Shown here: positions 15,189-23,541 of the stretch, piece after piece
How positions within the stretch are numbered: the stretch's first letter is position 1
Layout of the letters: every line of letters starts with the position of its first letter
NCBI GenBank assembly: GCA_038043445.1
Contig: JBBTBY010000118.1
Span: 1 to 52,480 of the forward strand
Direction of reading: 5' to 3'
Origin: Spirochaetota bacterium
GTDB taxonomy: Bacteria; Spirochaetota; Brachyspiria; Brachyspirales; JACRPF01
DNA length: 52,480 nucleotides
Program-made: the position numbers and the translations under genes
Notes under the pieces: generated by a model
Seen by the model: only the letters and a program-made list of their open reading frames with translations
The model's database searches: none
What the model was told of the DNA's origin: nothing

Positions 15189-16430
15189 ATGAAAAACGAT
15201 ATCGCAAAACATCTCTTTTCGTCAGCGATGTATGGTGTCATCCTCATCGCACTGTTCTCGTGCGGGAGAAATCCTCTCGCTCCCGATGCCGTTACGCTTT
15301 CGCTGCAGGACGAGGAGGTCATGCAGTTGAAAGCGGACGCCGCGCGGGCATTCAAGAGCGCACATGCGGAATTGATGCAGGATCTTCCCCTGTATGACGG
15401 GCTTATCAGCACCGAGCGTCATCCACAAGCGCGGGAGCTTACTATGGAAGAACGTGCAGCACTGGATACGAATGCGCTGGATGCAAGGGGCAAAGCCGTC
15501 CTCGCCTTCTATACAGCGGGTGATTTTTCTCAGGTATCGAATTATCTTGCATCAACGAACAGCTGGGGCGTGCGCGAGGACCTCTATGGTGTTGCAATGG
15601 AGGCGTATGGGAAAGGGAACACGGCAGTACTTACGGATTTCATTCAGAAAAAAGGGCTTCTGCCGAAGGTGCGATCGCTTGAAGCGAAATACGACCTTCT
15701 CCGCCACCAGAAGAATTTATCCATAAAACTCCGGACAAAGGCGATAACCCACGCGAATATCGCGGATAATCTGGACGGTGATATCTACCTGTGCTATACC
15801 GCCGGCCTTGCTTCCGCGGTGATAGGGCTCGCTACCGGTACGCATTGGTCGCATGCGGGCGTACTCGACAGATCGCGGCTTACCCTCAATGCAGATGACC
15901 CCGATTTCTCCGCGCAGCGTGTTTTCCTGAGCGCTTCCGATCAGACGGGTAATAACCCGAGCGGCAGCGGCAGCGGCTTGAGCGGTTCGGGCACCGGAAG
16001 CGGCTTCATTGCCCAGGTCGGATATGAAACGATAGCGAAATGGGAAGGGGAAACAGCCGCGTGTTCGTACCGAGCCATCGGTCGATCGGATGCCGCCGCA
16101 CGCGGTGCGATCGATTACGGGGCGCAATTCGTCGGTAAGGGATATTCGTTCTTCACCGATCGCTGGGATAATGAGAACTGGTACTGCTCGAAAGTGGCGT
16201 TCCGAGCCTGGCATGCGATGGGTGTCAACCTGGAACAGCGCTATCAGACGTTCTACTATACCTATTGGGTGAACTATACGTTCCCGATACTCTGGTGGAC
16301 GGTGACCGTGTCGCTTCCCGCGCTCGGTTCCTACAGCCAATGGATAGCCGCCAATGACGATATCTGGGTCACCCCCGATGATCTGAAGGATAATCCATTC
16401 GTCAGTTTCGTGAACGGCGATGCCGAATGA
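15189..16430 (+). CDS. lipoprotein with permuted papain-like (YiiX/DUF830-type) domain
   Basis: A 413-residue lipoprotein. The N-terminus ends in a lipobox, LIALFSC, followed by GRNP. Residues ~55-190 are helical and unassigned. From ~200 the sequence matches the circularly permuted NlpC/P60 (papain-like) fold: GDIYLCYTAG, then THWSHAGVLD with candidate histidines H219/H222, and much later NWYCSKVAFRAW with candidate nucleophile C333. This His-before-Cys order is the permuted arrangement of YiiX-type enzymes, which act on amide or ester bonds in peptidoglycan, lipids or proteins. A Gly-Ser linker (~258-272) splits the domain. It is anchored in a membrane, first gene of a four-gene operon, and overlaps the next by ATGA. 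The substrate is not predictable. Confidence 0.75.
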   Translation: MKNDIAKHLFSSAMYGVILIALFSCGRNPLAPDAVTLSLQDEEVMQLKADAARAFKSAHAELMQDLPLYDGLISTERHPQARELTMEERAALDTNALDARGKAVLAFYTAGDFSQVSNYLASTNSWGVREDLYGVAMEAYGKGNTAVLTDFIQKKGLLPKVRSLEAKYDLLRHQKNLSIKLRTKAITHANIADNLDGDIYLCYTAGLASAVIGLATGTHWSHAGVLDRSRLTLNADDPDFSAQRVFLSASDQTGNNPSGSGSGLSGSGTGSGFIAQVGYETIAKWEGETAACSYRAIGRSDAAARGAIDYGAQFVGKGYSFFTDRWDNENWYCSKVAFRAWHAMGVNLEQRYQTFYYTYWVNYTFPILWWTVTVSLPALGSYSQWIAANDDIWVTPDDLKDNPFVSFVNGDAE

Positions 16431-17437
16431 GCACGATGGTAAGAACAGCGGTATGCGCCGCAGCGAGCGTATGCATGGGATATGACTGCATGCTGTCGGT
16501 AAAAAAGCACAGCCGTGCCCTTACTGAGATGATAGTGCTCAACAATGGGCGCACATTCTACGGCTTGGATGAGCGCACGTTTGCGTCGGTATCGGAATTT
16601 TCCATCAACACCTTCCCCGGCGGTTTCTTCTCTGCACATGGGCGTCTGTATATATCCGACGACGGTGCACGAGCCGGTATGTTCGGCTGCCGGGTCGCGG
16701 TGTTCGGTGATGACCTGAAACTCATCGGGCATATCGCCACCCGTGCACTGCCCACATCCCCCGCGGAATATGACGGGAAGGTTTTCGTCGGAAGCGCACA
16801 GATGTCACGCGACGGAAGGTTCTCGCTCGAGGTCTTCGATGTGAACGGGAACAGGCTCAAGTCGTGGTATGATCTCGAAACGATGATCGAACCCGGCAAG
16901 GGGACGTATGCTCGGGGTCGGCTCTATTGTCCGGTAAAGTTCGCGGATGCGAAACGCACGAATCATATCCTCGCGATCGACACATCGACACTTGAGCGCA
17001 CTGATCTCTATCAGTATGATCGGCGATATCCCGCCGAGCCGTTCGGTATATCGATACATGACGGCAGGATGATCGTTGTCTATTTTCGCATGCATGAGAT
17101 CGAGATCATCGACATGGGCACTGGTGCATCCGCGGTACTGTTCCCCGCGCGTTACGCTTCTCTCCCGGCGGACAGGAACGGCATCGTTGCGGTCAATGCA
17201 GCGGTACACGACGGCGAGCTCAACTGCTTCCTTCATTACTATCTGCGGGACGGACATTTCCAAAAGATCGTCACCTTCGATGCAGGAACACATGCTTACC
17301 TGCGCACGATCGATCTCGATGCGCGGCACGGCCTCAACTATACCGCACTGCGCGCTGTTGCCGGGAATAAAGTGTTGTTCGGCGACGGATCGATATTCAA
17401 CCGGTATTCCGGGGCGATAATCGGGAAAGTGTTCTGA
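16427..17437 (+). CDS. beta-propeller-like protein, unknown function
   Basis: A 336-residue protein that I do not recognise by name. After a short, weakly hydrophobic Cys-containing start it consists of repeated beta-strand blocks of ~45 residues (HGRLYISDDGA, DGKVFVGSAQ, RGRLYCPVKF, DGRMIVVYFR and so on) of the kind that fold into a propeller. These usually bind partners rather than catalyse. Its ATG overlaps the stop of the papain-like gene (ATGA) and its own stop overlaps the next start (TGATG). It must therefore be made with its neighbours, perhaps as scaffold or recognition subunit. The export route is unclear. Confidence 0.7.
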   Translation: MSTMVRTAVCAAASVCMGYDCMLSVKKHSRALTEMIVLNNGRTFYGLDERTFASVSEFSINTFPGGFFSAHGRLYISDDGARAGMFGCRVAVFGDDLKLIGHIATRALPTSPAEYDGKVFVGSAQMSRDGRFSLEVFDVNGNRLKSWYDLETMIEPGKGTYARGRLYCPVKFADAKRTNHILAIDTSTLERTDLYQYDRRYPAEPFGISIHDGRMIVVYFRMHEIEIIDMGTGASAVLFPARYASLPADRNGIVAVNAAVHDGELNCFLHYYLRDGHFQKIVTFDAGTHAYLRTIDLDARHGLNYTALRAVAGNKVLFGDGSIFNRYSGAIIGKVF

Positions 17438-18048
17438 TGCGACGGGGCATGCATGGATATGTTGCGCTGATAATGATGCTCACCATTGCATCGTCATCGG
17501 TGTTCGCGCGCGGGTTTTTCATCGGGGGCGGTGCGGCGGTAGCAGCGGCATTCTCTCAGCACGGGGAATTCCCCGTTGGAGTGCAGGGCTCTCTGCAGTA
17601 CGGCGCATCGTTCGGGCTTTCTCTCGGGGATAATTTCGCGGTTTTCATCGGCGGCGATTATTATGAGACGGCGGCATCAGCACCCGTCGATGACATCATC
17701 TATCGCGCGCGCAAAGGCGTATCGATGACCGTCGGCGTGAGCGTTCCGTTGGCCGTATTGTCGACGAATGTGCCGACGGCGTTCGGTGTATCCGCATTCG
17801 CTATCGGACAATTCGATAATTTTCGATCGACCACGCTCTATCAATGCTCCCTCGGCGGAGGCGTTGCCCCCTATATCGACCTGTATCTCCCGGCATTGCG
17901 TTTCATATCCCTGCGCGCATCGCTCCCCGTGCATCTCATCATATTCGGCGAACGATCGACGGCGGTCCTCTGCGGGGTGCGATGTGATATTCTTTTTTAC
18001 CCGTTCGCTTTCGGGAATGCCGCGCGGAATGATGTCGATGTACGTTAG
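17437..18048 (+). CDS. probable outer-membrane beta-barrel protein
   Basis: A 203-residue exported protein with a signal peptide (MRRGMHGYVALIMMLTIASS, cleaved near VFARG). The rest shows alternating hydrophobic strands with glycine-rich turns, as in small 8-strand outer-membrane barrels (FFIGGGAAVAAAF, GASFGLSLGDNFAVFIGGDY). No enzymatic motif is visible. Its first base is the last base of the upstream stop codon, and its last 17 bases overlap the caspase gene, so expression is coupled on both sides. It could anchor or export the operon's products. The barrel is inferred from pattern only. Confidence 0.65.
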   Translation: MRRGMHGYVALIMMLTIASSSVFARGFFIGGGAAVAAAFSQHGEFPVGVQGSLQYGASFGLSLGDNFAVFIGGDYYETAASAPVDDIIYRARKGVSMTVGVSVPLAVLSTNVPTAFGVSAFAIGQFDNFRSTTLYQCSLGGGVAPYIDLYLPALRFISLRASLPVHLIIFGERSTAVLCGVRCDILFYPFAFGNAARNDVDVR

Positions 18049-18952
18049 ATATATTCTCATCATGGTGCTCTCCGTACTTGCAGGATGCAGTCCCTTCGCC
18101 CCGTCGTCCGCAGTCAGCAGGTACGCGATTGTGTACGGCATTTCGGGATATAGCGCTCCGCTTCCCGCGCTCTCGTATGCAGCGAGCGATGCCGACGCAA
18201 TGGCGCATATCCTTTCATCGAACGGATATAGTGTCACCATGCGAACGGATTCTGCCGCAACGACAGCACAGCTCTCGCTCGACATAGCCGCAGTAGAGAA
18301 CGTGGCGGACAGGAACGATCTCGTACTGTTCTATTTCTCCGGACATGGCGTGGACAAGGAAACGTTCTCTCATTGCGCATCGAATATCGGGCATACCGGC
18401 GTCATTGCCGATGCGGGGATCGTTCTCTACGGCGATGCCGCCGATCTTTCATCGAATGTCTGTGAGAACACCGTTGATGGGAATGAGCTCTCGCGGCTTT
18501 TTTCGGGAGTGAGCTCGCTGAAGAAGGTCGCCATTCTCGACTCATGCTATTCCGGCGGATTCGTTCTGAACGCGACGAGCATCGATGCGACGCCGAGGGA
18601 TCACACCAACACCGTCGACATAGATATCGGAAGAATATTCTCACTGGCGGCAGCACGCTATGTCTCGCCTGACAATGCCGGCTCATCGCCATTCCTCACG
18701 ATAAGCGCGGCAGGGGATGAAGCGGCGTGGGACGGCTTTCGGGGGCACGGCGTATTCACCTATTTCTTCATGACATCACTTTCCCAGGGCGATCTGAACG
18801 GCGACGGATGCATCACCACGCTCGAGGCATACGCCTTTACCAGCGCCGCCATCGATATGTACTGGAACGTAACGAATGACGGCGACTGGTGCTTCCTGCC
18901 GAGAATATCCGCTGTACCGGTGGATTATGTGCTGGCAAGACCTCACCCCTAG
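18032..18952 (+). CDS. caspase-fold (peptidase C14) lipoprotein
   Basis: A 306-residue lipoprotein with lipobox LSVLAGC, followed directly by a caspase-like domain. RYAIVYGISGY is the first strand, LFYFSGHG carries catalytic H105, and ILDSCYSGG carries catalytic C172. Near the end, DLNGDGCITTLE (254-265) is a perfect EF-hand/dockerin-type calcium loop, fitting the calcium dependence of many metacaspases. The start lies inside the preceding gene; ATGs at 18017, 18029, 18032 and 18038 are all possible, and I chose 18032. The enzyme would sit on the periplasmic or outer face of the envelope rather than in the cytoplasm, unusual for a caspase homologue linked to cell death. Target unknown. Confidence 0.85.
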   Translation: MSMYVRYILIMVLSVLAGCSPFAPSSAVSRYAIVYGISGYSAPLPALSYAASDADAMAHILSSNGYSVTMRTDSAATTAQLSLDIAAVENVADRNDLVLFYFSGHGVDKETFSHCASNIGHTGVIADAGIVLYGDAADLSSNVCENTVDGNELSRLFSGVSSLKKVAILDSCYSGGFVLNATSIDATPRDHTNTVDIDIGRIFSLAAARYVSPDNAGSSPFLTISAAGDEAAWDGFRGHGVFTYFFMTSLSQGDLNGDGCITTLEAYAFTSAAIDMYWNVTNDGDWCFLPRISAVPVDYVLARPHP

Positions 18953-18979: not shown

Positions 18980-19074
18980 GAGCGGAGTCGAAATGAGCGA
19001 AATGAGTTCAGATCATGCAAAACGTCACCTCGACTCCGCTCGGTGACCGCTTCTTTAACGGCTCCGGGGAGCCG
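18980..19074. repeat. REP-like inverted repeats
   Basis: GAGCGGAGTCGA at 18980-18991 recurs inverted at 19030-19041, with partly matching flanks, and CGGCTCC/GGAGCCG (19059-19065 and 19068-19074) forms a second hairpin. Such paired palindromes between genes are typical of dispersed REP elements. They fill much of the 254-bp gap after the caspase gene. Confidence 0.6.
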
Positions 19075-21795: not shown

Positions 21796-21807
21796 GGGGA
21801 TGGTGTG

Positions 21808-23541
21808 ATGCTAAGAGGATCTACGGTAACAGCACGTCGATTACGTGCTGAACAGACTTCCGCTGAAAGGGAATTGTGGAAACATCTACGCGGCAGAAAA
21901 CTCGGCGGGATGAAGTTCACTCGTCAGCATACGATTCGGTATATTGATGACGGGAAGGCGTATTACTTTATTGCCGATTTTTATTGCGCTCAATGCAAGT
22001 TGTGTGTTGAGATAGACGGTTCGATCCATAAAGCCCAAGAGGAGTATGACCGTATGCGAAGCTCGATCATGCGTAATTTCGGCATTCGTACCATTCGCTT
22101 TTCGAATGAGGAGGTAATACATAACAGCAGTGAAGTATTGAAAAAGATCAACGATATTTCTTCTTCTCCCCTTCCCCTCTCTCACTTCCCTGTGAGAGAG
22201 GGGAAGGGGCTGGGGGATGGGGTGAGTGTGCCCAGCGGAAAAACAGCATTGAACGCGATGATCGCATTTTCCTTCCTCATCCTCTCCTGCGCCCCCGGCA
22301 CCCAATCCCTACGAACCAGCATGCCGAAGCTGAAGATAGACCCTAAGAGCATCAAGGAAATCCCCGGCCACCTTGACTTGGCGAAACTTAAGGTGATATA
22401 CGAAGACGGCGAGTTTATAAAGTGGATCGATGAAAAAGGGCGGACGAATATTTCGTTTGAACCACAAAAATACATCCCTAAACAGGTCAAATTAGATGAG
22501 GATAAATTTTGTCAGGTGTTAGGTACAAATGGAAATGTATACGAATGGCCTGATTTCACGAGTAAAATAATTGATCAAGTAAATAGCAATGAAATCATCA
22601 AAGTTGTCGAGGAATACAAATATTTTACAAAAGTTAACACGACTCGGAATATTGAGGGCTGGATCGAACGCTCCGTTATGAACGATTATTTGCTTAAAAA
22701 AACCGCAAATGCTAATTTCAGCGTTGTCAGGGAGAGTGATTATCTTGTTATACGAAACAAGGATGGTGCTGTCATAAAAAAAGAATTTATGCGTGAAACC
22801 GTAACAAAAAGCGTTGCCAGCATTTCTGATGTTAAATTGATTTACACCACCTATGATCCGCTTATGTATCAATCTGTTCAGGACAAACTCCCTGGCGTAT
22901 TTCAAACCAATAAGATAAGCTCTGTAAAAGTTGATATATCTCGAACGCAAGCACTAAGCAAGCTTACCTATAGCTATAATATTGCCATCCAATTTCTCGA
23001 CGTAAACAAAAGAGAGGTGTTTCAGGACTTGTTTTCAGGTATAATGAATGCATCGGGTGAACGAATGATCTCAATCAATGGTGTAATTGAAGGAGCGTCT
23101 TCTTACTACTATAATGGCTACGTTTATAACATGTTATCTGTAGAGCTTTCCTGGACGCCTCCGGAGGGACGCATACCTACCGATGGAAGACCATTGGATT
23201 GGTGTATGATTTATCGCAATGGGATGTTAATATTCTCCGGCCAAGACTCTGCGGAATATAGCTATTCCTATATTCCAAATATACAAATGGCATTGATAAC
23301 GCACAAGACAGACATTACTGAAGATTTTATATTTGATCCAATCAAAAAAATAAAAATCTATGCCGTGACCAATATTTCTCTGTCGCAATCACAGTTGTAT
23401 TACGCAATTAAATATGATAAATCAGGTAACATTTATCGCCATGATGTGAAAGTGAGAATAGATAAAGATGGTGCAGCGTTAAACGAGTCCATAAAAACAA
23501 ATTTTCTGTTTAATGTATACAGCAATGGATACAGAAAATGA
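21808..23541 (+). CDS. DUF559 (Vsr-like) nuclease domain fused in frame to an SH3 lipoprotein
   Basis: One open frame of 577 codons from ATG 21808 (AGGGGGA seven bases upstream; GTG 21805 also possible). Residues ~1-118 are a DUF559 domain of the restriction-endonuclease fold: TSAERELWKHLRG, FTRQHTIRY, IADFYCAQCKLCVEIDGSIH with the catalytic-type Asp/Glu/Asp set. Residues ~118-142 are translated hairpin repeat (SPLPLSHFPVREGKGLGDGV) from the element's right end. The frame then enters a lipoprotein signal (FSFLILSC, C161) and a mature protein of ~415 residues unrelated to DUF559. DUF559 proteins are normally ~120 residues, so this is a fusion created by insertion. In the cell the two halves may be made separately by internal initiation. 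Confidence 0.75.
   Translation: MLRGSTVTARRLRAEQTSAERELWKHLRGRKLGGMKFTRQHTIRYIDDGKAYYFIADFYCAQCKLCVEIDGSIHKAQEEYDRMRSSIMRNFGIRTIRFSNEEVIHNSSEVLKKINDISSSPLPLSHFPVREGKGLGDGVSVPSGKTALNAMIAFSFLILSCAPGTQSLRTSMPKLKIDPKSIKEIPGHLDLAKLKVIYEDGEFIKWIDEKGRTNISFEPQKYIPKQVKLDEDKFCQVLGTNGNVYEWPDFTSKIIDQVNSNEIIKVVEEYKYFTKVNTTRNIEGWIERSVMNDYLLKKTANANFSVVRESDYLVIRNKDGAVIKKEFMRETVTKSVASISDVKLIYTTYDPLMYQSVQDKLPGVFQTNKISSVKVDISRTQALSKLTYSYNIAIQFLDVNKREVFQDLFSGIMNASGERMISINGVIEGASSYYYNGYVYNMLSVELSWTPPEGRIPTDGRPLDWCMIYRNGMLIFSGQDSAEYSYSYIPNIQMALITHKTDITEDFIFDPIKKIKIYAVTNISLSQSQLYYAIKYDKSGNIYRHDVKVRIDKDGAALNESIKTNFLFNVYSNGYRK
22168..22209. repeat. right subterminal hairpin of the DUF559 element (inside the ORF)
   Basis: A perfect 18-bp stem (22168-22185 with 22192-22209) around TTCCCT. 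It is translated as part of the fused ORF and mirrors the left hairpin. Confidence 0.75.
22258..23541 (+). other. probable separate lipoprotein with SH3-like domain (3' part of the fused frame)
   Basis: From ATG 22258 the frame reads MIAFSFLILSCAPG, a lipoprotein signal with lipobox LILSC. GTG 22222 or 22228, or TTG 22249, would add the basic residue such signals usually need. An SH3-like domain follows (~90-160), with EWPDFTSKIIDQV and NIEGWIERSVM, the usual bacterial SH3 pattern for binding wall peptides. The last ~250 residues are beta-rich and unassigned. The stretch is much more AT-rich than its surroundings, suggesting foreign origin. The element inserted just upstream and probably removed the native start. 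Confidence 0.6.

Follow-up and report, generated by a model that had tools for sequence, protein, structure and literature searches.

Genes 3 and 4 of a four-gene cluster in a Spirochaetota bacterium encode a predicted small outer-membrane barrel and a caspase lipoprotein, and this pair of genes is conserved across the phylum. The cluster occupies positions 15189 to 18952 of the window, by which we mean the whole analysed stretch of 52,480 nucleotides. The window is one contig (C118, GenBank JBBTBY010000118.1) of a 5.1-Mb assembly (GCA_038043445.1) from the order Brachyspirales. The conservation of the pair, the coupling of its two genes and their co-inheritance make it very likely that barrel and caspase have a joint function. 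We suggest that they form an envelope protease module of two genes, conserved in the Spirochaetota, in which the barrel anchors or exposes the lipid-anchored caspase; this more specific proposal could equally turn out right or wrong. The pair is apparently an undescribed conserved envelope protease unit: in the open-access literature that we searched (subscription papers were outside the scope) we found no description of a barrel paired with a lipoprotein caspase.

Results

The product of gene 4 (18032-18952, + strand; P0004) is a protein of 306 amino acids which matches the Pfam family Peptidase_C14 with E = 1e-14 and 55.3 bits, above the curated cut-off of 21.4. Its catalytic dyad is in place, with H105 within SGHG and C172 within DSCYSGG, and residues 254-265 form an EF-hand-like loop, DLNGDGCITTLE. 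By inspection of the sequence we found the lipobox LAGC19 with Cys19 as the lipid-attachment residue. The first-pass annotation of this DNA was thus right in describing a caspase lipoprotein with these catalytic residues and this loop. A profile of the caspase family matches the solved metacaspases MCA4 (3e-21), MCA9, MCA1 and the bacterial GSU0716. Gene 4 shares with the bacterial metacaspases and orthocaspases (MEROPS C14) the catalytic fold, the His/Cys dyad, the Asp two residues before the Cys and an acidic p10/EF-like loop; unlike the bacterial metacaspases that have been surveyed, it is a lipoprotein whose gene is coupled to that of an outer-membrane barrel. In metacaspases the Asp that precedes the catalytic Cys by two residues lines the basic S1 pocket. 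Because this residue is conserved (D170), gene 4 would probably cleave after Lys or Arg. In type III metacaspases a p10 Asp is required for calcium binding (cited in PMC6426788), and on this ground calcium dependence is predicted for gene 4.

Gene 3 (17437-18048, + strand; P0003) encodes 203 amino acids with a signal peptide (helix 5-23) and overlaps the start of gene 4 by 17 bp (18032-18048). An AlphaFold2 model computed from an alignment of 23 sequences consists of the signal helix and eight strands, with a mean predicted local distance difference test (pLDDT) score of 90.7, and Foldseek matches the model to OmpA, Ail and NspA (best E 3e-7). We therefore predict with high confidence a signal peptide followed by a closed eight-stranded outer-membrane barrel, in agreement with the probable barrel annotated earlier. 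The fold is that of the small eight-stranded barrels OmpA, OmpX, Ail and NspA (template modelling score by target up to 0.66, for NspA), with which gene 3 has 9-14% identity; unlike these proteins, gene 3 is genetically linked to a caspase lipoprotein. It belongs to a Spirochaetota barrel family which has no Pfam entry. When the window is left out of the profile of this family, P0003 still scores 65-66 bits, against 2 bits for its reversed sequence and at most 8.4 bits for unrelated open reading frames.

We searched the phylum with a profile of the caspase lipoprotein and then read the surroundings of the matches. Directly upstream of the caspase we found a small barrel gene with a signal peptide, commonly with a 4-bp overlap (ATGA). 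When 84,980 species genomes were scanned with an alignment of 20 sequences, the closest loci came nearly exclusively from metagenome-assembled genomes of Spirochaetota; the isolate Rectinema subterraneum SURF-ANA1, which carries the pair, was also among them. After removal of duplicates there were 49 distinct lipoprotein caspases with at least 200 bits, three of which start at a contig edge. Each of the 46 evaluable Spirochaetota lipoprotein caspases, that of the window among them, shares its cluster with a barrel gene of the gene 3 family, which in 43 cases is located immediately upstream. One gene intervenes in locus L085 and two in the sister genomes L176 and L177; these intervening genes are of membrane or transport type and the cluster stays together. 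From the barrel stop codon to the codon of the lipid-bearing Cys the median distance is 65 nucleotides. The tree set contains 63 further caspases, none of which adjoins a barrel of this family.

The reverse search with the barrel profile gave matches in 22 genomes of the phylum. Two partial matches (L174, L175) were left out of the counts, and in most of the remainder a caspase adjoins the barrel. Among these are four further, divergent pairs of Treponema-like type (L168, L170, L172 and L173), often with an ATP-binding cassette (ABC) transporter gene before the barrel and sometimes with a second caspase after the pair. In L168, L170 and L173 this second caspase lipoprotein stands in tandem behind the pair and the ABC transporter gene lies upstream. 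In total, barrel and caspase pairs were found in 31 of the searched genomes, which fall into 12 families, and their distribution in the Spirochaetota is patchy.

The two proteins are also co-inherited. The distance matrices of caspases and barrels correlate with r = 0.71, while the maximum of 2000 shuffles is 0.16. In 44 pairs Cys19, His105 and Cys172 are invariant, and D254 and E265 of the EF-like loop are present in 43 of the 44. A quick tree resolves two Spirochaetota groups, one of 47 rows (support 85) and one of 5 rows (support 99), which are almost free of other caspases. They contain every lipoprotein caspase except for a single Bacillota row and a Treponema-like row that is very long.

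Several observations weigh against an envelope module made up of barrel and caspase. Family f47 departs from the usual arrangement: upstream of its lipoprotein caspase stands a gene of metallo-beta-lactamase type, and the barrel, where it was found (G266 and G316), is located elsewhere. The barrel is absent from the sole other genome of the window's family and from the Brachyspira-like genus of the order. The invariance of the catalytic His and Cys is in part a product of the selection of loci, since the Cys motif was used to scan one collection and GHG was required; the lipid-attachment Cys was never selected for. Signal peptides and lipoboxes were assigned by visual inspection and simple rules rather than with SignalP. 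Finally, co-inheritance and coupling indicate a joint function of the two proteins and not physical contact between them.

In the window the pair is preceded by two more genes on the same strand. Gene 1 (15189-16430; P0001) encodes a lipoprotein of 413 amino acids with the lipobox LFSC25, again recognized by inspection, and a permuted papain domain of the C92/YiiX type (H222/C333). The blocks HWSHAGVL (H222) and WYCSKV (C333) align in permuted order with solved YiiX (2if6), each of them being weak alone, and the match to Pfam C92 (E 2e-4, 21.7 bits) is below the curated cut-off of 27. For these reasons the papain fold of the C-terminal part is probable; of the permuted-papain lipoprotein annotated earlier, the lipobox and the two blocks stand and family membership by score does not. 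Gene 1 has the His block before the Cys block as the C92/YiiX papain-like amidases do, and it differs from them by an unrelated N-terminal part of about 190 amino acids and a Gly/Ser-rich insert. Gene 2 (16427-17437) encodes 336 amino acids of uncertain fold and export. The beta-propeller proposed for it could not be confirmed: there is no family or PDB match, a single-sequence model reaches a pLDDT of 36, and internal repeats in a self-similarity test are not above those of shuffles.

Full-length relatives of gene 1 are found in none of 392 other genomes of the phylum, nor by a pattern scan of the genome contigs, and those of gene 2 in none of 295. Two weak phylum matches to gene 1 (L012/L013, the same as L180/L181) are other C92 lipoproteins without an adjacent barrel or caspase. 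These spirochaete permuted-papain lipoproteins (L180:2490-3308 and L181:2631-3521) are located inside clusters of small lipoproteins.

The four genes are real and the overlaps of 4, 1 and 17 bp given in the first-pass annotation were reproduced. Gene 1 and gene 2 share ATGA (16427-16430), and gene 2 and gene 3 share one nucleotide within TGATG (17437). A divergent regulator gene of LacI/AraC type is found upstream, its start being 156 bp away from gene 1. With these tight overlaps and the divergent regulator the four genes look like one coupled operon. A single shared promoter, as assumed earlier, is supported by the overlaps but not by a promoter site, since a scan with the sigma-70 consensus gave no promoter-like site upstream of gene 1; the promoter and terminator scans gave nothing above shuffles.

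One could imagine that papain, propeller, barrel and caspase act together as a single functional surface complex, and the tight overlaps as well as the presence of two lipoproteins beside a barrel would fit this. However, full-length relatives of genes 1 and 2 are lacking in the phylum genomes searched, neither gene is present in any of the others among the 47 barrel and caspase loci, and such a four-protein complex is distinctly unlikely. A four-gene operon conserved elsewhere in the phylum was rejected: in the genomes searched genes 3 and 4 recur, genes 1 and 2 do not. The latter two are thus additions specific to this genome or lineage, and elsewhere the pair would work without them.

Discussion

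An exported, membrane-anchored caspase which works with a barrel is strongly supported by the conservation of the pair across the Spirochaetota, and this part of the first-pass annotation stands, whereas the four-gene unit does not. The attack on other cells which it also envisaged found no support.

We suggest that the barrel and caspase module works in the following way. Both proteins would be exported from translationally coupled genes and the caspase would be tethered through the acylated Cys19. The barrel could then hold the caspase at the outer membrane, where it would place or expose it, and it may also gate its activity. Binding of calcium at the EF-like loop and the p10 region would activate the caspase, which would cut envelope or surface substrates, probably after Lys or Arg. 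In this genome the module would have gained the two coupled upstream genes, that is, a permuted-papain lipoprotein of the amidase or acyl-hydrolase class, which may work jointly with the pair, and gene 2.

The wider neighbourhood of the pair bears on another possibility. In 27 of 47 loci the barrel is adjoined by a divergent pair of genes, one for a lipoprotein with an SH3 domain and one for a DUF445 membrane protein (e.g., L073:1378-3353, - strand); possibly these two take part in the same envelope function. The SH3 domain possibly binds peptidoglycan, and lipoproteins often face the periplasm. Furthermore, the closest folds to gene 3 are small eight-stranded barrels such as OmpA and OmpX. 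The caspase could therefore be a quality-control or stress protease which faces the periplasm, with the barrel as its sensor or substrate in an envelope stress relay and not as the partner that anchors or exposes it. Yet the SH3/DUF445 pair is not present at the window locus and the genome of the window has no DUF445 protein; for the orientation of the caspase, inner leaflet or surface, sequence does not separate the two cases. We regard a stress relay of this kind as unlikely. In families f5 and f24 (L005, L018, L019, L020 and L004) the caspase is followed by a conserved, ion-channel-like membrane protein of about 350 amino acids, which has no Pfam match.

A role in cell suicide or defence was also considered. 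An activated caspase could act on the barrel or the envelope, comparable to the caspase-like proteases that accompany bacterial gasdermins, and both the match of the PADLOC caspase model to P0004 (1e-12) and the patchy distribution of the pair are in line with this. However, the caspase is predicted to be exported and lipidated, its partner is an outer-membrane barrel and not a gasdermin, the four genes have no further PADLOC match, and the neighbours of the pair in other genomes are ordinary chromosomal genes (uvrB, ABC transporter, tRNA-synthetase-type). A suicide or defence effector is thus highly improbable. As in the gasdermin-protease operons, a caspase-type protease stands beside a membrane protein; the pair differs from them in the exported eight-stranded barrel, in the protease being a lipoprotein and in having no defence-type partner. 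A gasdermin module was rejected, as no gasdermin-type match was found in any of the four genes and the neighbour is a barrel. Assignment to a defence system was dismissed because the PADLOC match is a generic caspase match only, and assignment to the Caspase EACC1-associated conflict systems because 60 bits stand against an NCBIfam cut-off of 140.

PorU is a hydrolase of caspase-like fold and belongs to family C25. The system that most closely resembles the proposed mode of working is the attachment complex PorU-PorV(-PorZ/PorQ) of the type IX secretion system of Bacteroidota, in which the integral barrel PorV keeps PorU on the surface (PMC8545088), a layout of protease and outer-membrane barrel like that of genes 3 and 4. 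In contrast to PorU, gene 4 is of family C14 and has a lipid anchor, and in contrast to the larger PorV-type barrel, gene 3 has eight strands. Membership in the type IX system was rejected on account of the C14 protease, the eight-stranded barrel and a genome in which no Por_Secre_tail sorting domain was found. It is conceivable, if somewhat doubtful, that the Spirochaetota possess a dedicated outer-membrane protease complex which processes or displays surface proteins and which evolved independently of PorU-PorV.

Discussion of bacterial caspase homologues has mostly cast them as cytoplasmic enzymes of cell death or defence. The statement of the first-pass annotation that they are usually cytoplasmic is only partly right: among 398 single-domain bacterial metacaspases from a 1463-genome survey, 46 carry an N-terminal helix, possibly a signal peptide (PMC3501461). 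Exported or transmembrane forms are described in the metacaspase surveys, a pairing with a barrel is not (PMC3501461, PMC6426788). The tie of an exported, lipidated caspase clade to one outer-membrane barrel family throughout a phylum points to a role in the envelope. The pair is also a tractable two-gene system for asking what non-suicidal bacterial caspases do. Moreover, a barrel family without a Pfam entry is assigned a genetic partner, and this in a phylum about whose outer-membrane proteins little is known.

Other features of the window

A phage origin was rejected, as the matches to PHROGs are all weak. Directly 3' of the caspase gene an inverted repeat, GAGCGGAGTCGA, is found at 18980-18991 and 19030-19041. 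It occurs in 15 exact copies in the genome and the reversed control in none; we therefore regard it as a dispersed repeat element. Further downstream, a single open reading frame at 21805-23541 (+ strand) contains both a DUF559 endonuclease-like domain, at residues 7-116, and a lipoprotein-like segment that carries an SH3_3 domain; it possibly represents two genes which are read through a repeat.

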